Source of the DNA: Victivallales bacterium | Lineage (GTDB): Bacteria > Verrucomicrobiota > Lentisphaeria > Oligosphaerales > Oligosphaeraceae | Length of the DNA stretch: 32,358 nucleotides | Assembly: GCA_017535315.1 (NCBI GenBank) | Contig: JAFXUD010000053.1 | Span: 1 to 32,358, forward strand | Reading direction: 5' to 3' | Shown: positions 3,905-26,619 of the stretch, one piece after another | Position numbering within the stretch: position 1 is the first letter of the stretch | How the letters are laid out: the number at the start of each line of letters is the position of its first letter | Translations under genes and position numbers: made by a program | The notes under the pieces: generated by a model | The model's database searches: none | The model's input: the letters and a program-made list of their open reading frames with translations, nothing else | Told to the model about the DNA's origin: nothing

Positions 3905-3951
3905 TTGTATGGTGATTGAATTGGAAAATTACAATATCCCTAGGAAAAACA

Positions 3952-4779
3952 ATGAAAAGAATCTTGTGTTTTACGCTGATTGAGCTACTGGTGGTCATTG
4001 CCATCATCGCCATTCTGGCAGCCATGCTTCTCCCAGCATTAGCCAAGGCCCGCGCCAAAGCAAGGGACATCTCCTGTATCAACAACATGAAGACTATGGG
4101 ATTGGCCATGCAACTTTACGCTGGTGATTTTGACGACTACATCGTGCCTGGTTATGGCTGGAATCCGCCTGGTCATGGCTGGACTTTCGGGAAATCCTGG
4201 ATTGCCGTCCTCTCTGGTCATAAACTGGCCACCACGGCGGGCGCGGGTTATGGCACCTCCATCAGCAACGACTTCCTGCAAGGCGACAGCGGCAAATGGC
4301 CAATGGAGGGCAGCACATTTGTCTGTCCCAGTTCTGGCGTTCCATGGGGTAATCCCAAGCAAAACCTCTACGGTGAAACCCACTACGGAATCAACTGGAT
4401 GCTTGCAGGTTCCACCTCGTATTCAAATAGCTCCGATGCCAACACAAGAGCCATCCTCGGCACTTTCCATACCATGGGAAGCCTGACCCTCCCCAGCGAG
4501 GCGGTCATCGTCTTCGACTCCAAGCGTGTTAAACAAAGCCTCATCAACTGGAACAACGGCATCGGCGGACGGCACGGCGGTACAAGCGACGGCCTCACCG
4601 AAAGCTATTCCAACGACTGGCCGACTGGTACCCGCGTCCCCCAGGCAAAGACCAACTGGCTCATGATGGACGGTCATGCAGAAACCCAGACGTATGTCTG
4701 GTGGAACCAGCGCAAAGCGGACCAGGCCGTTCCAAACAACGATGGCCGCAAGCCCTTCTTCCGCGGCTTCCGTCCCTGA
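3952..4779 (+). CDS. Type II secretion-like pseudopilin, DUF1559/H-X9-DG type (copy 1)
   Basis: 275 aa. The start is at [13 protein letters not shown], with AGGA 8-9 nt upstream; an earlier TTG at 3916 would add 12 residues that break the short prepilin leader. A prepilin cleavage/methylation site (FTLIELL) is followed by one hydrophobic helix (about residues 9-28) and the charged stretch [11 protein letters not shown]. The globular part ends with GRHGGTSDG and then [10 protein letters not shown], which matches the C-terminal DGH motif of the pseudopilins abundant in Lentisphaerae and Planctomycetes. The residue before the processing site is Cys, not the usual Gly. A paralogue follows at 4831. 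Such proteins form minor pseudopilus subunits or surface filaments; the individual role is unknown. No secretion ATPase or prepilin peptidase gene is present here. Confidence 0.88.
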
Positions 4780-4830
4780 TACCTTAGTTTTTCATTAACT
4801 AATTCTCACCAACACAAGACTGGACACACG

Positions 4831-5643
4831 ATGAAAAAAGTTTTCGCGTTCACTCTCATTGAACTGCTGGTAGTCATTGCGATCATCGCGATTCTGGCCG
4901 CCATGCTCCTCCCAGCATTAGCCAAGGCCCGCGCCAAAGCAAGGGATATCTCCTGCATCAACAACATGAAGACCATCGGACTGGCCATCCAGCTCTACGC
5001 TGGCGACCACGATGACTACATCGTGCCTGGCCGCGGCTGGAATCCACCCACCAACGGCTGGAGCTTCGCTGGCACATGGTGCGCCATTCTCGCTGGCTGG
5101 AAATACTCTGTCACGGCGGGCGCGGGCTATGGGTGTTCCATCAGCGATGACTTCCTACAAGGCTCCAACGGGAAATGGCCGATGCAGGGCAGCACATACG
5201 TCTGCCCCAGCTCGGGCGTGCCATGGGGCAGACCCGAGGACAACCTCTACAACGAGACCCACTACGCCATGAACATCCTGCTCAGTGGCGACAAGAACTG
5301 GGCTAGTTCCAGTCCAGTCAACGGCACCTTCCGCACCCTCGGCTGCCTCACCATCCCCAGCGAAGCAGTCATTGTCATGGACTCCAAGCGCGTCAAATCA
5401 GCCATGATGAACTGGAGCAACGGCATTGGCGGCAGGCACGGCGGCACAAGCGACGGCCTCACCGAAAACTACAGCAATGACTGGCCGACTGGTACCCGCG
5501 TCCGCACCGCCAAGACCAACTGGCTCATGATGGACGGCCACGCGGAAACCAATGACTTCAACTGGTGGGACCAACGCACGGCGGATGCTGGCACCTTCAA
5601 CGGCGACTCCCGCAGACAGTTCTTCCGCGGCTTCCGTCCCTGA
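4831..5643 (+). CDS. Type II secretion-like pseudopilin, DUF1559/H-X9-DG type (copy 2)
   Basis: 270 aa, starting [13 protein letters not shown], 51 nt after copy 1. It shares the N-terminal helix and [14 protein letters not shown] almost residue for residue with copy 1, and keeps the internal landmarks [15 protein letters not shown] (here [11 protein letters not shown]), [10 protein letters not shown] and [10 protein letters not shown], ending FFRGFRP as copy 1 does. Residue -1 to the processing site is Ala. A 30-40 nt stretch near the 5' end is virtually identical at DNA level in both genes, suggesting recent duplication or gene conversion. The ribosome site is weak (no clear purine run before the ATG), so translation may be coupled to copy 1. 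A terminator at 5683 closes the pair. Confidence 0.88.
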
Positions 5644-9584: not shown

Positions 9585-10658
9585 ATGAACACAAATTGGA
9601 ATGAACTTCGCCCGATATTACAGGGTATTATGGACGATGCAACCCGCATTGGCGAGGAATGCGGGTGCCAACTGGCCATCTACCATCATGGGAAATTAGT
9701 GCTGGACCTCTGTTCTGGATACTATAGCCCCGACCAGGCACGCCCCATAACCTCCGACTCCCTTTTCCCCGTCTTTTCCTGCGGAAAGGGAGTGATGACC
9801 ACCGCCATGCACTGCCTCGTGCGACGCGGCCTCATCAGCTATGACACCCGTATTGGCGACATCTGGCCAGCCTTCGACTGCAACCGAAAACAGGATATCC
9901 AGTTGTGGCATTTCATGACCCACACCGCAGGCATGCAGCAACTTCCTGTGCCACGCGACAGCGAGGAACTTGCCGCCTGGGACTATATGTGCACGATTCT
10001 GGCAAAGTCCGCACCCGCATGGGCACCTGGCACAAAATGCGCCTACCACGGTATCACATTTGCCTGGCTGATGGGCGAAACAGCCGCCATCGCAGCTCGA
10101 AAAACTTGCCGCGACGTGGTTATGGACGAAGTGATTAAGCCCCTCGGCATTGAAAAAGAGTTCTTCTTCGGGACAAACAGCGAAGCCGACCAGCGCTTCG
10201 TCCCCGTGGATGGTTCTGCAAAAAATGGCTATGACTGGTGCGCAGCCTTCATCAACAATCCCGTGCTGCGCCATGCCGTGATCCCCTCTGCAAACGGTGT
10301 TTGCAGCGCCCGCGCACTTGCACGCCATTATGCCGCACTCATCGGCGAAGTGGACGGCGTTCGCCTCCTGAACGACAGCCTGCTTGACAATGCGACAAAG
10401 CTCAATCGTCCCAAAGAGGATTCTGGCAAATCAGGAGACTGGGTGCGATTCGGACTGGGCTATGTCCTGACGGGGCCAGAAGACAACCTGGGGATCCGTT
10501 TTGGACACGGCGGTGCCTGTGGTTCGGAAGGTCTCGCAGACCGCGAAAACGACGTTGCCCTTGCCTTTACCAAGAACAAATCCCTCCCGACGCACCCTGT
10601 CCACCCGATACGCGACCGTATCTCCAAGGCTCTTGGCCTTCCCATTCGGATTTGGTAA
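9585..10658 (+). CDS. Serine hydrolase, class C beta-lactamase/esterase EstB-like family
   Basis: 357 aa, no signal peptide seen, so probably cytoplasmic. The acylation motif S-x-x-K is SCGK with Ser65 and Lys68; the second motif is the esterase-type Tyr154 in CAYHGITFAW rather than Y-x-N; the third is the HGG box in FGHGGACGSEG (308-310). This combination is characteristic of EstB-like carboxylesterases and relatives, not of true AmpC cephalosporinases. The substrate could be an ester, a peptide or a muropeptide. The start is fixed by family-like N-terminal content; a short GGA precedes it. A second family member starts 30 nt downstream, so the two likely form an operon. Confidence 0.85.
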   Translation: MNTNWNELRPILQGIMDDATRIGEECGCQLAIYHHGKLVLDLCSGYYSPDQARPITSDSLFPVFSCGKGVMTTAMHCLVRRGLISYDTRIGDIWPAFDCNRKQDIQLWHFMTHTAGMQQLPVPRDSEELAAWDYMCTILAKSAPAWAPGTKCAYHGITFAWLMGETAAIAARKTCRDVVMDEVIKPLGIEKEFFFGTNSEADQRFVPVDGSAKNGYDWCAAFINNPVLRHAVIPSANGVCSARALARHYAALIGEVDGVRLLNDSLLDNATKLNRPKEDSGKSGDWVRFGLGYVLTGPEDNLGIRFGHGGACGSEGLADRENDVALAFTKNKSLPTHPVHPIRDRISKALGLPIRIW

Positions 10659-10688
10659 GACGGCAGTTGCAGCCTACCTTGAGCAAAA

Positions 10689-11750
10689 ATGGAATTCGCC
10701 GTGAAAAGTGCCGCCATTCAAGCGGCTTTAGACCAGGCCACCGCCAAATGTATCTTTCCATGCGGTGTCCTGATGCGAAAGCAAGCTGACAATCCTCCAG
10801 AGTTTTTCTGCTCTGGTAAATCGGTTTACGGCGACGGTGGCTTCAAGCCCGATGCTCATTCCTTGTTTGACCTGGCCTCCCTGACCAAAGTAGTCGCCAC
10901 CACCACGTTGGCAATGATGGCGTATGAAGAAGGCAGCCTGGATCTGGACAAGCCCGTCTCCGCCTGGCTTCCTGATTTCATGGATGGCGACCATCCCGAA
11001 TGGCGCGCCATCATCACACCGCGGATGCTTCTCGCTCACACGGCGGGCTTTGTTCCGTTCCTCCCCTTCTACCGTACATACGTAAATATTTCCAGCCGTC
11101 CCGAAAAACAACGCATTGTACGCCTGGCCCCCCTCCATTCACAGCCCAATGCCGAAACCGTCTATTCGGACATTGGAATGATGGTCATGGGGCAGATTGT
11201 TGAAACCATCCTGCGTAAAAGGCTGGATGCAGCCGTTTGGGAACTGGTCTTCAAACCTCTGGAAATGCTTGAAACCACCTTCAATCCCCCCAGCAAGCAA
11301 CACTGCGTCCCGACAGAGGAGATGGCAGACAAGCCTGGTCACTTCTGGACAGGCATTGTCCACGATGAAAACGCACGATGGCTGGATGGGGTTTCAGGCC
11401 ACGCAGGGCTCTTTTCCACAGCCGCCGACCTGGAACGCTTTTCAAACATGCTTCTGGAAAACGGCAGGCCGCTTCTGCACTCGCGACATACCCTGCAGCT
11501 TTTTGCATCACCCGCCAACCTGCTTCCTGGTTCGACACGCTGCCTGGGCTGGACACATTGGAGCGCAGTCCACAGCTCCTTTGGGCACACAGGCTTCACA
11601 GGCATCTCCCTCTGGATTGTCCCCGACCAGGGTCTCGCAACCCTCCTTCTAACCAACGCCGTGCATCCCCATCGGGAGTGCAAACAGAACGGCTACTTTG
11701 ATACGCGAGATCATCTCCATGCTCTATGCCTGGAAACCTCGCGTCCATGA
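10689..11750 (+). CDS. Serine hydrolase, class C beta-lactamase/D-aminopeptidase-like family
   Basis: 353 aa. Catalytic landmarks are SLTK (Ser64, Lys67), YSD (Tyr159) and a C-terminal HTG box in SFGHTGFTG (300-302). These are the three conserved elements of penicillin-binding-protein-like serine hydrolases. No signal peptide is evident, so a cytoplasmic role is likely; in other bacteria similar proteins accompany peptidoglycan-recycling genes, but none is seen here. It shares fold but little sequence with the preceding hydrolase, so this is not a recent duplication. The ribosome site is weak. About 30 nt separate its end from the convergent glycyl radical enzyme gene, and no strong terminator is visible between them. 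Confidence 0.83.
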   Translation: MEFAVKSAAIQAALDQATAKCIFPCGVLMRKQADNPPEFFCSGKSVYGDGGFKPDAHSLFDLASLTKVVATTTLAMMAYEEGSLDLDKPVSAWLPDFMDGDHPEWRAIITPRMLLAHTAGFVPFLPFYRTYVNISSRPEKQRIVRLAPLHSQPNAETVYSDIGMMVMGQIVETILRKRLDAAVWELVFKPLEMLETTFNPPSKQHCVPTEEMADKPGHFWTGIVHDENARWLDGVSGHAGLFSTAADLERFSNMLLENGRPLLHSRHTLQLFASPANLLPGSTRCLGWTHWSAVHSSFGHTGFTGISLWIVPDQGLATLLLTNAVHPHRECKQNGYFDTRDHLHALCLETSRP

Positions 11751-11782: not shown

Positions 11783-13822
11783 TCAATATTCAGTCCTGTC
11801 AATAATCTCCTGCTGTTCCTGCGGGGAGAGGGAGATGTAGTACTCGGAGAAGCCCGTCTTGCGGATAAGGAGGGAACGATGGTTTTCTGGGTGCTTTCTC
11901 GCATCTTCGAGAGTCTTACGCGAAACCATCGTAAAGCCGACATGAAGGCCGTCCATGGCGAAAAAACTACGCATGAGTCCTATCAATAAATCGGAGGATA
12001 ATCTTTGGGCGAATTTGAGATTCAGACCACCGCAGATGCAGCGCTTGAGCGGAAGCAAGGCAACGCTCTTCAGGAGGGCAGTCGGGCCGATGATGTCCAT
12101 GTCATGCACAGGTGACTGGTTTTCGCTGATGGTCTCGCCCTTGAGCCGTCCGTCGGGTGTGGCCCCGATAACGGAACCGAAGCGTGCGTGATGGGTGAGC
12201 GAGTAAAGTGACGGCATAGCAAGAAAGCCCTCCTTGAGGCCAGCGGCTTCCGCCGCGTCGATAAGAGCGTTGGCAGCCCTGGCTCCAAGGCAATCCACCT
12301 CCTCGATACCGTTGCCATATTTCGGCATGCGTGTTTTAAGTTCGGCGAGTAGGGTTTTGTGCCCGTTGAAATTGGCATCGAGAATGTCGCGGAGTTCTTG
12401 AAAGGTCATGCGCTTCTCGTCGTCAATGAGGCGTTTGATGGCCACGAGGCTGTCCGCCATATTGGCAATGCCCGAAAACATCAGATGGTTCCAACAGTAC
12501 TCCTCGCAGCCGCCCCGCCAAAGGTCCCTGCAGCTCTGCACGCAGCTGTCGAGGAAGATTGATTCAAGGTTGAAGCAGAACCTGTCGTGGATAATCTGCT
12601 TCCTCTGGACTTCGCGCATGTTCGCCGCAATGGCTTCCTCGGCCACGCTGCGAAGAGTGGCGAGGACGGCCTCCACGGCGGAGCCTTCCGTGGAAGCCTT
12701 GAAGATGGCCTCGCGGAACCACACAAACGAGTTGTGGAACTGGTCGATTCGAGGCATGATATTGTGGAGATGTCCAGGCAAATCAACGCGGTTACAGGCA
12801 GTGAATGTGTAGTTACACGCATCTTCAGGACGGATGCCTGAGTTGAGCAGCTTGTCGTGTATCAAGATGTCGTTGAAGAAGTTACATTGTGCGTCAAGCG
12901 TGGAGGCCGCCTCCCCCACAAGCTGCCACACCTCGTTGGGCATGCCGATGCCGATGCGGAAATTGAAGGTGGGCTGCGGAAGGTGCAGGCGCTGCGCCGC
13001 CTTGATGAAGAGGCACGAAAGTTCGTTGAACTGCCAGTTGCCATCAATGTCCCGCCCCCCAAGAGTAATGTACTCTTTGGTCGCCTGGCACGGGGTGGGT
13101 TTTTTCGCGTAGTTGTCCGTAGCAGTGCCCGTAATCTCGTTGAACTTCACAAGGAAATAACTCAGAAGAGTTGTCGCGCGTTCAGGATTTGGTTCGCGCC
13201 TGTAGAACGGGAGCAGGTGCTGGTCGAGGCGTCCAGGCGCAAAGTCCCTGCTGCCGATGATGCAGCTGAATATGAAATGCACCATCCAGACCGACTGCAG
13301 AGCTGAGTACAAATCGTAAGCGGGCTTGTTTGGTACGATTCGCAGCGCCATCGCCATCTCGCGCTTGCCCATGTCGTCGGCTGCCTCGGCGTAGCGAAGG
13401 CAGAATCTCCTGATGCCATCAATGCATCCTCGCGCCTGCCGCTCAAAGTACCTTGCCTCCTCGGAACCGATGCGCTCTGCATTGACGGCGATTTCCGCCA
13501 TCATTCCATCCAGTCCGATGGAGAGAATCTTCGATATCGGCAGGGTGATGTGCCCACTGCTCCTGATACCACCCGGCAACCGCGAAAACGGCTCGCTGTG
13601 CGGCCAGCGCGACTCTATCATCCGTCCAGCGAAGACATCTTCTGGCTCAATGGGCGTAGAGAGACCGTTGAAAAGCAGGTTTGCCTCATGCAGATACCTC
13701 TCCTGGATGGAAAGAGCCTTCGTGGCCTCCTTGTTTGCGAAAAGAATCTCCTCCCGCTCGATAAAGCAGGCAAGGTTGTCACAGGAATAAACCTTTTCAA
13801 TCAGTCTTTTCACTTCGTCCAT
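11783..13822 (-). CDS. Pyruvate formate-lyase-like glycyl radical enzyme with atypical active-site motif
   Basis: 679 aa from MDEVKRLIEKVYS; AAGGAA lies 7-8 nt upstream, better than the alternative ATG at 13843. The family is shown by SSGHITLPISKILSIGLDG near the N-terminus and the C-terminal glycyl radical loop RKTGFSEYYISLSPQEQQEI with Gly657. The active-site cysteine is Cys343 in YTFTACNRVDLPG; the 314-residue Cys-Gly spacing agrees with known members. PFL itself has two adjacent Cys, and glycyl radical dehydratases/decarboxylases have C-V-E; here it reads C-N-R, so neither class fits. The protein is shorter than the usual 750-850 residues. It needs a radical SAM activating enzyme, normally adjacent, and none is in this window. 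The substrate is unknown. It should be cytoplasmic and oxygen-sensitive. Confidence 0.88.
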   Translation of the reverse strand: MDEVKRLIEKVYSCDNLACFIEREEILFANKEATKALSIQERYLHEANLLFNGLSTPIEPEDVFAGRMIESRWPHSEPFSRLPGGIRSSGHITLPISKILSIGLDGMMAEIAVNAERIGSEEARYFERQARGCIDGIRRFCLRYAEAADDMGKREMAMALRIVPNKPAYDLYSALQSVWMVHFIFSCIIGSRDFAPGRLDQHLLPFYRREPNPERATTLLSYFLVKFNEITGTATDNYAKKPTPCQATKEYITLGGRDIDGNWQFNELSCLFIKAAQRLHLPQPTFNFRIGIGMPNEVWQLVGEAASTLDAQCNFFNDILIHDKLLNSGIRPEDACNYTFTACNRVDLPGHLHNIMPRIDQFHNSFVWFREAIFKASTEGSAVEAVLATLRSVAEEAIAANMREVQRKQIIHDRFCFNLESIFLDSCVQSCRDLWRGGCEEYCWNHLMFSGIANMADSLVAIKRLIDDEKRMTFQELRDILDANFNGHKTLLAELKTRMPKYGNGIEEVDCLGARAANALIDAAEAAGLKEGFLAMPSLYSLTHHARFGSVIGATPDGRLKGETISENQSPVHDMDIIGPTALLKSVALLPLKRCICGGLNLKFAQRLSSDLLIGLMRSFFAMDGLHVGFTMVSRKTLEDARKHPENHRSLLIRKTGFSEYYISLSPQEQQEIIDRTEY

Positions 13823-13858
13823 AAATAATTCCTTTTGATGCAATTGATTTCTTTTTCT

Positions 13859-13886
13859 AAATTACTAATTCTTATTGAGATTTCAA
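13859..13886 (-). promoter_or_regulatory. Candidate promoter of the glycyl radical enzyme gene
   Basis: On the minus strand TTGAAA (13886-13881), a 16-nt spacer and TAATTT (13864-13859), about 37 nt before the ATG at 13822. Layout is the same as at the GH9 gene (TTGAAA, 16 nt). Prediction by eye only. Confidence 0.35.
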
Positions 13887-13990
13887 GCCTGGAGGCCGTC
13901 AAATCTCATAGCCAACAGTACTGACAAATTAGAAGTACCCAAAAAACGTTTTTTGGGGGAACAATATACTTTAGTTGGCGATTGGACCTT

Positions 13991-14138
13991 ACCCACAGAG
14001 AAGAGCCGCGTAGCGGCGGCAAGAGCATAGCCGTGGGTAGAGCAAAGCCGCGACAGCGGCGAAGCGAAACCCACGGTCAGATGCCCACCCCAGTCCCAGT
14101 GCGCCTTGCCGCGTAGCGCAGCGAAGCGGCAAGGCGCA
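13991..14138. repeat. GC-rich multi-hairpin REP-like intergenic element
   Basis: Three linked inverted repeats. ACCCACAG (13991), CCGTGGGT (14031-14038) and ACCCACGG (14069-14076) allow the middle arm to pair with either side; inner stems GCCGC-gta-GCGGC (14005-14017) and GCCGC-gaca-GCGGC (14047-14060) recur with the same sequence. A separate perfect 13-bp stem, TGCGCCTTGCCGC against GCGGCAAGGCGCA, spans 14100-14138. Reading frames across it give arginine/alanine-rich peptides like the spurious small proteins annotated in PVC genomes. It lies between the divergent glycyl radical and isomerase genes in an otherwise AT-rich spacer. Confidence 0.75.
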
Positions 14139-14232
14139 TCCAAGCCATCTACCAATGAAGGATAATGTCATCAGGAAACTCAAGTATATAATTCCCTTTT
14201 TTTCTGGAAGTAGGTTGAAAAACTCTCCAGTA

Positions 14233-14249
14233 GATATAAATTCTATATC
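14233..14249 (+). promoter_or_regulatory. Operator-like inverted repeat before the isomerase operon
   Basis: GATATA-aattc-TATATC, a perfect 6-bp inverted repeat 45 nt before the ATG at 14294, in the AT-rich leader. A TTGAAA (14215-14220) and a TATAAA (14235-14240) are near, but their 14-nt spacing is short for a standard promoter. Tentative. Confidence 0.3.
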
Positions 14250-14293
14250 ATATATACCTAAATTGTGTCATTTTAACTCGAAAGGAAAGAAGA

Positions 14294-15115
14294 ATGCCAG
14301 TCAATTCTGATGTGAAGAAGTATGGTTCCAACATGAAGGTCAACCTGGCAGCAATGTCTGGCTGGTTCAGTGACCTGAGTCATGTCGAGATGGTCGAGCA
14401 GGTGGCTGCATACGGCTTCTCCGCCTTTGAATGTCTTTCCGCCAACAAGTGGGAGGACAAGGAGGCCGTGCGCGACAAATGCCAGGAACTGGGCGTCAAA
14501 GTCGGCGCCATCAGTTGCAGCGGAACCATCAAGGGAGACGGTCCCGTCAATCCAGCCTTCCACCCCACCTTCGTCGCCGAAACCAAGGAGGCCATCAAAA
14601 ACGCCAAGTTGCTGGGTACGAACGTTGTCCTGGCCCTGACGGGGGCTCTCCGCGACGACCTTTCCTTCGAACAGCAGATGGCCAATGCGGCGGCGGCTGG
14701 CAAGCTGGTGGCACCCTATCTGGAGGATGCGGGTGTCACCCTCGTCTGGGAGCTGCTCAATACCAAGGTCAACCATGCTGGCTACTCCCTGGTCTATTCC
14801 AAGGACGCCGCGGACCTCGTGCGCGCCACGGCCTCGCCTAACGTGAAAATGCTGTTCGACATCTACCACCAGCAGATCAGCGAGGGTGACGTCATCCGCA
14901 ACATCCAGACCTATTCAGCCGAAATCGGACACTACCACTTCGGGGACAACCCAGGACGCCATGAACCTGGCACTGGCGAACTCAACTACAAGAACATCTT
15001 CAAGGCGATTGCCGCCACTGGCTACACGGGCATCGTCTCCTCCGAGTTCAGCAAAACTCCAGAGATTACCGTTGATAGCCTGATGGCACTGCTCGCTGAA
15101 TGCGCGACGTGGTAA
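14294..15115 (+). CDS. Hydroxypyruvate isomerase-like TIM-barrel sugar isomerase/epimerase
   Basis: 273 aa; AAAGGAAAG precedes the ATG. Xylose isomerase-like (AP endonuclease 2) TIM barrel. The pattern follows the Hyi group: VWELLNTK with Glu153, then GYSLVYSK, LFDIYHQQISEGDV with Asp189 and His192, GHYHFGDNPGRHEPGTGE with His215, and SSEFSK with Glu251. Glu153, Asp189, His215 and Glu251 would bind the divalent metal. Family members interconvert hydroxypyruvate and tartronate semialdehyde, or other keto sugars and sugar phosphates; the real substrate is open. Cytoplasmic. It heads a collinear cluster, with a Gfo/Idh/MocA oxidoreductase following after a tandem-repeat spacer, a pairing often seen in inositol and rare-sugar pathways. 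Confidence 0.85.
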   Translation: MPVNSDVKKYGSNMKVNLAAMSGWFSDLSHVEMVEQVAAYGFSAFECLSANKWEDKEAVRDKCQELGVKVGAISCSGTIKGDGPVNPAFHPTFVAETKEAIKNAKLLGTNVVLALTGALRDDLSFEQQMANAAAAGKLVAPYLEDAGVTLVWELLNTKVNHAGYSLVYSKDAADLVRATASPNVKMLFDIYHQQISEGDVIRNIQTYSAEIGHYHFGDNPGRHEPGTGELNYKNIFKAIAATGYTGIVSSEFSKTPEITVDSLMALLAECATW

Positions 15116-25107: not shown

Positions 25108-26619
25108 ATGTCTGCCTTTGACAACGACCGCTATCTTGCCGCCCAGAAGAAATCCATCCTGGCCCGCGTAAATGCATCTAAAAACCGCCTGTATCTTGAA
25201 TTCGGTGGCAAGCTCATAGGAGACTTGCACGCATCGCGCGTATTGCCTGGCTATGACCCAAACGTCAAAATCCGTCTTCTGAAGGAATTGAGCAGCAAGG
25301 CCGACATCATCATCTGCATCCATGCAGGGGACATTGAGGAACACAAGGTCCGTGCTGATCTCGGCATCACCTACGACAAGGAGGCACTGCGCCTCATTGA
25401 CGAACTGCGCAACAACGGTGTCGATGTGACAGCCGTCGTCATCACGCGGTTCAATGGCGAATCAGGGGCGCTGGCTTTCCAGAAGAGCCTATCTTCCAAT
25501 GGCATCGCAGTATATCTTCATCGCGGCATCGAAGGCTACCCGATGGACGTTGATCACGTGGTCAGTGACGCTGGCTTCGGCTCCAATCCATACATTCCTG
25601 TGACGCAGCCGCTGGTCGTCGTCACGGGGCCTGGCCCCAACTCGGGAAAAATGGGCACCTGCCTCTCCCAGATGTATCATGAATACAAGCGTGGAAACAT
25701 CGCACACTATGCAAAGTTCGAGACCTTCCCCGTCTGGAACCTACCATTGAACCATCCCGTCAATCTCGCATACGAAGCGGCAACCGCCGATTTGCGCGAC
25801 ATGAACGCGATGGACTTCTTCCACTTTGATGCATATGGCAAGATGGCCGTCAACTACAACCGTGACCTGCAGGCCTTCCCTCTGCTCCGCACTGTTTTCC
25901 AGCGGATTATCGGTGAAGAGTGCTGGTACAAGTCCCCGACGGACATGGGTGTGAACTGCATCAAAGAGGGCATTGTGGATGACGCAGCCGTCTCCAAGGC
26001 GGCAAACGAGGAGATTGCTCGCCGCTACTACCGCGCATACGCAGACTACAAGCTGGGGCGCGCTTCCGCCATGACCATCGCGCGAATGCAGGAAGTCGCA
26101 GCCAAGGCCAACATCGACGTGGAGAACCGCGACGTGGTCGTAGCCTCCAGAAAGGCCGCTGCTGAGGCAAAGGAAAAAGGCAAGGGCAACAAGGGAATAT
26201 TCTGCGGGGCCGCCATCAAACTTCAGGACGGTACCATTGTCACGGGCAAGAACAGCCCGTTGATGCACTCCGCATCCAGCATGATTCTCAATGCGGTCAA
26301 ACAACTTGCGGGCATCCAAGACGACCACCACCTTCTCCTGCCCGAGATACTCGAATCCATCGCCAATTTCAAGGATTCACTTGGTGCTGTCCGCTCGCCT
26401 GGCCTGGATGTCAGCGAGACGCTTATCGCGCTGGTCATCAGCGCCAACTCCGACAAGATGGCGCAAAAAGCGCTCTCCTGCCTCTCGGCCCTGCGTGGCT
26501 GCGATCTCCATTTAACCCACATTCCATCGGCGGGTGATGATGCGGGCCTCCGCAGGCTGGGTTGCCTCTTCACATACGACCCTGTGCCGCCCACTAAAAA
26601 ACTGTTTATGGAAAACTGA
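25108..26619 (+). CDS. DUF1846 (UPF0371) family protein
   Basis: 503 aa, the normal length. MSAFDNDRYLAAQKKSI followed by LYLEFGGKLIGDLHASRVLP and IIICIHAGDIEEHKVRADLG are diagnostic of DUF1846, as is TGPGPNSGKMGTCLSQMYHE (about 171-190), which looks like a nucleotide-binding P-loop (GPGPNSGK). Members are soluble cytoplasmic proteins whose structure is known but whose reaction is not. The ATG is fixed by the family N-terminus; directly upstream is a heptad repeat and no ribosome-binding site, which is unusual. The downstream mfd gene starts 8 nt after the stop, so the two are co-transcribed. Confidence 0.9.
   Translation: MSAFDNDRYLAAQKKSILARVNASKNRLYLEFGGKLIGDLHASRVLPGYDPNVKIRLLKELSSKADIIICIHAGDIEEHKVRADLGITYDKEALRLIDELRNNGVDVTAVVITRFNGESGALAFQKSLSSNGIAVYLHRGIEGYPMDVDHVVSDAGFGSNPYIPVTQPLVVVTGPGPNSGKMGTCLSQMYHEYKRGNIAHYAKFETFPVWNLPLNHPVNLAYEAATADLRDMNAMDFFHFDAYGKMAVNYNRDLQAFPLLRTVFQRIIGEECWYKSPTDMGVNCIKEGIVDDAAVSKAANEEIARRYYRAYADYKLGRASAMTIARMQEVAAKANIDVENRDVVVASRKAAAEAKEKGKGNKGIFCGAAIKLQDGTIVTGKNSPLMHSASSMILNAVKQLAGIQDDHHLLLPEILESIANFKDSLGAVRSPGLDVSETLIALVISANSDKMAQKALSCLSALRGCDLHLTHIPSAGDDAGLRRLGCLFTYDPVPPTKKLFMEN

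Follow-up and report, generated by a model that had tools for sequence, protein, structure and literature searches.

A glycyl radical enzyme of Victivallales with Cys-Asn-Arg in place of the eliminase Cys-x-Glu motif

Results

The glycyl radical enzyme gene and its surroundings

The window, that is, the whole stretch of DNA that was analysed, is the 32,358-bp contig JAFXUD010000053.1 of a Victivallales bacterium. A gene on its minus strand (11783..13822) begins with ATG and encodes a 679-amino-acid-residue protein. A Shine-Dalgarno-like AAGGAA (13829..13834, minus strand) could be read 5′ of the ATG at 13822. Both PF02901 (E 7e-71) and PF01228 (E 6e-13) were matched over the Pfam cut-offs, and the product is predicted to be a member of the glycyl radical enzyme (GRE) superfamily defined by these two domains. 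GREs are oxygen-sensitive radical enzymes. The radical glycine, Gly657 (11852..11854, minus strand), was located by the PF01228 match and by alignment. It lies in the loop R654-K-T-G657-F (11849-11863), which has Lys where the family fingerprint RVxG[FWY] has Val (PMC11528403). Most Victivallales proteins of the clade described below read R-K-[TF]-G-F at this loop, and Gly657 is invariant across the clade.

Compared with the orthologue from the same genus (90% amino acid identity), the gene showed a dN of 0.054 and a dS of 0.749, a ratio of about 0.07, and 227 of the 298 nucleotide differences fell on third codon positions. The gene is intact and under strong purifying selection. A pseudogene was ruled out by this ratio together with the invariant Cys and Gly loops. 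The GC content of the gene equals that of the window.

Divergent from the GRE gene is a gene (14294..15115, plus strand) for a TIM-barrel protein of xylose-isomerase-like fold, resembling hydroxypyruvate isomerase below the cut-off; a Gfo/Idh/MocA oxidoreductase gene is a further divergent neighbour. The intergenic stretch at 13843-14293 contains repeated GC-rich palindrome-like pieces (GCCGCGTAGCGGC, GCCGCGACAGCGGC). On the other side, a tandem pair of PF00144 beta-lactamase-family genes (9585-11750) is convergent with the GRE gene and ends 33 bp away from it. The window also holds a tandem pair of very similar genes with type II pilin-like N-termini (3916-5643) and a gene for a full-length DUF1846 protein (25108-26619).

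The Cys loop reads C-N-R

The Cys loop, T341-A-C343-N-R345-V346 (12785..12802, minus strand), contains the thiyl Cys. In phmmer and profile alignments to PDB sequences, Cys343 aligned with C433 of glycerol dehydratase (GD), and Arg345 with Glu435 of the GD motif C433-V434-E435. A C-x-E motif in this loop marks the GRE eliminases GD, propanediol dehydratase (PD), CutC, HypD and IslA (PMC7077986). The initial annotation of this DNA had reported Cys343-Asn344-Arg345 together with Gly657, and both were found exactly so in the translation. One objection that it raised to its own reading, a local shift placing a Glu or a second Cys beside the thiyl position, was not borne out: the profile alignments contained neither such a shift nor a gap that would permit one, and rescue of the motif in this way was rejected.

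Cys343 was invariant in 30 aligned GREs. The whole of T-A-C-N-R-V was invariant in 12 orthologues spanning about 40-90% identity (alignment A1), C-N-R was likewise invariant in a nine-row alignment (A3), and it was kept in Latescibacterota and Clostridia homologues at 36-38% identity. As far as these aligned sequences go, C-N-R, where the eliminase hallmark would be C-x-E, is a feature of the whole clade and not a quirk of a single protein. Other residues invariant in the 12 orthologues include H91, R192-D193, G232-T233, P242, P244 and Y540-S541. His91 (13550..13552, minus strand), invariant in alignments A1, A2 and A3, aligned with GD His164 and is probably the equivalent of HypD His160. Arg192-Asp193 (13244..13249, minus strand) took the position of GD His281-Ser282 in the alignment to 1r8w.

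Distribution of the C-N-R clade

A search through 84,980 species found 25 loci, in Victivallales/Lentisphaeria MAGs, one Latescibacterota MAG and Clostridia MAGs. The orthologous C-N-R clade comprises about 20 genomes, namely Victivallales gut bacteria, the Latescibacterota MAG and four Clostridia MAGs. Many of the Victivallales/Lentisphaeria MAGs with loci come from herbivore rumen, reticulum, jejunum or colon. Among the host's relatives, orthologues (41-90% identity, >450 bits if full-length) were separated by a sharp gap from other GREs (about 31% or less, <240 bits). About 18 of the 198 genomes of the host's class carried an orthologue, normally in single copy; another species of the host's genus, represented less completely, gave no match to it. 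In Lachnospiraceae, the family of one Clostridia carrier, the gene was present in 3 of 397 sampled genomes. Such patchy spread would fit a horizontally moving accessory function. The Cys loop of the four Clostridia reads SGCNR, and four related Clostridia have C-C-T or C-C-A at the motif.

Loss of the Glu is accompanied by an Arg-Asp pair

A tree was built from 85 aligned GREs with the Cys-loop columns left out. It comprised the nine GREs of the host genome, cluster partners, about 40 GREs from relatives, PflD, YbiW and GD fragments. One branch (SH-aLRT 99) united the C-N-R (19), C-C-[TA] (4), C-N-W (5) and C-H-N (1) rows. Outside it were 55 C-x-E/D rows and one long-branch C-M-G row, so that Glu/Asp was kept in 55 of the 56 sampled GREs there. 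PflD, YbiW and GD grouped together, apart from the branch without C-x-E, and the window protein fell outside the PflD/YbiW clade. It was thus not placed in a characterised clade, an outcome that the initial annotation had named as one that would overturn it; the NCBIfam equivalog scores were also far below cut-off. The separate C-N-R cluster that the initial annotation had proposed to look for is real; no conserved neighbour family recurred in all loci.

Arg-Asp occupied the position of GD His281-Ser282 in all 24 proteins with C-N-R, C-C or C-H-N, and in none of the 55 C-x-E proteins. Loss of the Cys-loop carboxylate is therefore accompanied by Arg-Asp at another pocket position. The C-N-W sister rows have neither the Glu nor the Arg-Asp. 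The loss of the Glu and the gain of Arg-Asp were possibly a single ancestral event. At the level of sequence, this correlation suggests that the acid/base group has been relocated and that the pocket binds an anion.

The C-N-W proteins (L097, L098, L099, L103 and L113), sister to the C-N-R/C-C branch, read HGCNWPDLPP, and no activase was present among the neighbours of C-N-W genes in L195-L197. The C-C-[TA] proteins are clostridial (L086, L088, L094 and L095); that of L086 is accompanied by genes for LacI, a PfkB kinase, an ABC sugar transporter and a nucleoside hydrolase.

No description of GREs without the CXE motif was found in the literature searched, in which coverage of subscription journals was thin. 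As far as that literature shows, the branch is undescribed; it falls within the GRE superfamily and is not a new type of system.

Predicted structure and closest known enzymes

An AlphaFold model of the window GRE, made with 30 homologues, had a mean pLDDT of 91 and a pTM of 0.90. The top Foldseek matches were GD, PD, PflD, HypD and CutC (TMq 0.82-0.85); benzylsuccinate synthase (BSS), MASS and HPAD scored lower. The model has the GRE barrel fold, with a TM-score of 0.84 to GD. BSS/MASS, HPAD and PFL were the most distant solved relatives.

The protein is short beside its closest solved relatives (679 versus 781-843 residues; PFL has 759), as the initial annotation had remarked. The host genome's other eight GREs have 681-758 residues and the operon partners in relatives 619-745, so shortness is not peculiar to C-N-R proteins and is not diagnostic. 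Its use as a sign of novelty was rejected, since it is common among the GREs of this lineage.

GD (1r8w) and 1,2-propanediol dehydratase (5i2a, 9rco) share with the window protein the fold, the Cys and Gly loops and the His164 equivalent. At 21-23% identity they differ from it in having C-V-E for C-N-R and His281-Ser282 for Arg-Asp, and they are about 110-160 residues longer, with most of the difference in the N-terminal part. In PFL the hallmark is a pair of adjacent cysteines, of which the second is the thiyl residue. The window protein shares the radical Gly and thiyl Cys with PFL, but it reads Ala342-Cys343-Asn344 where PFL has the pair, and it scored 46 against a cut-off of 994 for TIGR01255 (PFL). 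The C-C-[TA] sister group also differs from PFL, in that its extra Cys follows the aligned Cys and does not precede it. In benzylsuccinate and alkylsuccinate synthases, whose folds are among the most distant, the active-site Arg lies at Cys+15, whereas the invariant Arg here lies at Cys+2.

The best PDB sequence matches were PflD and YbiW of E. coli (8yjo/8id7), PFL2-type GREs that act as 1,5-anhydrohexitol-6-phosphate lyases in the GRE step of their route (PMC12441222). They have C-V-E/C-I-E and Ser-Ser/His-Ser where the window protein has C-N-R and Arg-Asp, and the corresponding NCBIfam model, PRK09983, gave 225 against a cut-off of 1109. HypD, trans-4-hydroxy-L-proline dehydratase, shares the fold of the model. 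It requires a pocket Asp278, and also His160, besides the essential Glu436 of its C-x-E (PMC7077986); this Glu is absent from the window protein, which scored 225 against the HypD cut-off of 1100. No NCBIfam equivalog of a named eliminase was matched (best score 225, cut-offs 1000 or more), and the generic TIGR01774 gave 287.6 against 678.

Activases

No activase gene is present in the window, as had been observed at first with the remark that it is usually next door. Among the 18 loci with enough flanking sequence to be scored, an activase stood beside the C-N-R gene or in the same run in 10 (L058, L064, L074, L085, L089, L189, L084, L087, L090 and L092) and did not adjoin it in eight (the window, L059, L060, L061, L062, L065, L066 and L067). 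The genome-wide search that had been proposed found two true activases over the TIGR02494 cut-off outside the window, for nine GREs in the host genome. One (C30:12649) sits between two GREs; the other (C22:19751) has no GRE within about 10 kb. With an adjoining activase in 10 of the 18 scorable loci and two activases elsewhere in the genome, the missing neighbour is uninformative, and activation in trans would be expected. Identity to the operon activases was 52-54% for the C22 enzyme and 42-44% for the C30 enzyme. In the activase tree the nearest neighbours of the C22 enzyme were other activases, with no specific pairing to C-N-R genes. The choice of a dedicated activase by phylogeny was rejected, since activases do not co-segregate cleanly with these genes.

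Gene neighbourhoods

Four Victivallales operons encode, besides the C-N-R GRE, between one and four further GREs, a single activase and an Fe-alcohol dehydrogenase; a C-V-E and a C-T-E type recur as partner GREs. In the L058 operon there is an IclR regulator as well as a fructose-6-phosphate aldolase. L089 (2077-14144) carries five GREs in a run (C-T-E, C-M-G, C-V-E, C-N-R and C-Y-E) together with a single Fe-alcohol dehydrogenase and a single activase, and its C-M-G protein likewise lacks the Glu. The C-N-R GRE has no other GRE alongside in the window, G054, G026, G024, G018, G009, G047 and G022, and in Clostridia it is accompanied by an activase only.

Elsewhere the neighbours included a true lactaldehyde reductase, which scored 667 bits against a cut-off of 537, with an activase (L092), a KDPG/KHG aldolase (L067), a ROK kinase, a GH2-type enzyme and a TIM-barrel isomerase (L189), DUF4838 (L060), a glutaminase-A-type protein (L076), and PfkB kinases and glycoside hydrolases. 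A flavodiiron-rubredoxin-flavin reductase protein in L084 and L087 plausibly serves oxygen protection. A TIM-barrel protein of xylose-isomerase-like fold adjoins the GRE in L062 and L189 as it does in the window, and the one in the window (14294..15115) may act in the pathway of the GRE. Immediately 5′ of the C-N-R gene in the Latescibacterota MAG lies a gene for a 358-residue protein with no Pfam or NCBIfam match (L083, 1296-2372), itself preceded by a URO-D-like gene.

No neighbour family recurred in every C-N-R locus, and sugar genes are abundant throughout these genomes. Gene context is therefore a weak guide, and it points faintly to sugar or sugar-acid catabolism.

Discussion

In characterised eliminases the C-x-E Glu contacts a substrate hydroxyl and is generally regarded as the base; Gln in its place inactivates both HypD and IslA (PMC7077986, PMC8473560). 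An eliminase without this Glu thus has no precedent that we found. With Arg in place of a residue believed to carry out half of the chemistry, the C-N-R enzymes may catalyse a reaction that is still to be identified, and a reaction outside the known classes, as first suggested, is plausible.

We tentatively favour, with slightly less than even confidence, a working GRE variant that probably acts on an anionic sugar derivative, with Arg345 and Arg192 holding the anion and Asp193 as acid/base. If the enzyme works as its family does, the Gly657 radical would be generated by a radical-SAM activase acting in trans and would pass to Cys343 as a thiyl radical that abstracts hydrogen from the substrate. 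The later steps are weaker suggestions. Arg345 and Arg192 may hold a carboxylate or phosphate of the sugar-derived substrate, and Asp193, helped by His91, may do the acid/base step given to Glu elsewhere. Elimination of a C-O bond would then yield an aldehyde or ketone, which the neighbouring Fe-alcohol dehydrogenases could reduce in some relatives. These four residues are assigned to the pocket by alignment, and their putative roles are drawn by analogy with HypD and with IslA, where two arginines together with a Gln hold the sulfonate (PMC8473560). On this proposal, which we hold just as tentatively, the branch would be a new mechanistic GRE class with a reaction not yet known, its carboxylate moved from C-x-E to the Arg-Asp strand and its Cys-adjacent Arg binding an anionic sugar derivative. 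Against this reading weigh the inactivity of the HypD and IslA variants that lack the Glu, the C-N-W group with neither Glu nor Arg-Asp, the varied neighbourhoods, and the chance that Arg-Asp and the missing Glu go back to one event.

The arginines could also be explained by C-C bond making or breaking, as in a 2-oxo-acid lyase, a decarboxylase or an addition enzyme. They would then hold a carboxylate as in PFL or through Arg508 of BSS, and no Glu base would be needed. At least two arginines expected to lie in or close to the pocket are indeed invariant in the C-N-R proteins, and succinate synthases hold one fumarate carboxylate by an active-site Arg (PMC12358834). We consider this unlikely: the second Cys of the PFL type is absent, the closest folds and profile scores are those of eliminases with BSS/MASS, HPAD and PFL the most distant, and L076, L083 and the Clostridia do not conserve Arg358, whose C+15 spacing is that of Arg508 in BSS. 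Nor was a gene for a small Fe-S accessory subunit, of the kind encoded alongside X-succinate synthases, recognised among the annotated neighbours. An ordinary polyol or anhydrosugar dehydratase/lyase with a moved base, acting on a substrate like that of GD or the 1,5-anhydrohexitol-6-phosphates of PflD/YbiW, would account for PflD being the best single-sequence PDB match. The fructose-6-phosphate aldolase and the alcohol dehydrogenases encoded close to some relatives would echo the PflD/YbiW route, which reportedly also includes aldolase and dehydrogenase steps. The aldolase linkage is seen in two loci only, however, identity is about 30% even to the nearest C-x-E relatives, from which a supported branch separates these proteins, and both substrate-contact positions (His281-Ser282 and Glu435) are changed; we regard such an enzyme as quite improbable. 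That the protein is a catalytically altered or silent paralogue, serving the C-x-E GREs beside it as a partner or regulator, is very improbable. Four Victivallales operons do place it beside other GREs with one common activase, but its Cys and Gly loops are invariant, it stands alone among GREs in the window and seven further genomes, and in Clostridia its only companion is an activase.

The C-x-E Glu has been regarded as the residue that defines GRE eliminases. A conserved natural branch that lacks it and carries a correlated Arg-Asp offers a ready test of the mechanistic need for this Glu, and is a place to look for a possibly unknown anaerobic reaction in the gut bacteria of herbivores. The lineage, whose genomes each carry about nine or more divergent GREs and few activases, also represents a large and little explored pool of radical enzymes. 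In the host, nine divergent short GREs (L001-L009) are spread over contigs C6, C22, C24, C25, C30, C78, C88 and C93, and their Cys motifs are C-A-E, C-N-E, C-W-D (two), C-Y-E (three), C-W-E and C-N-R.
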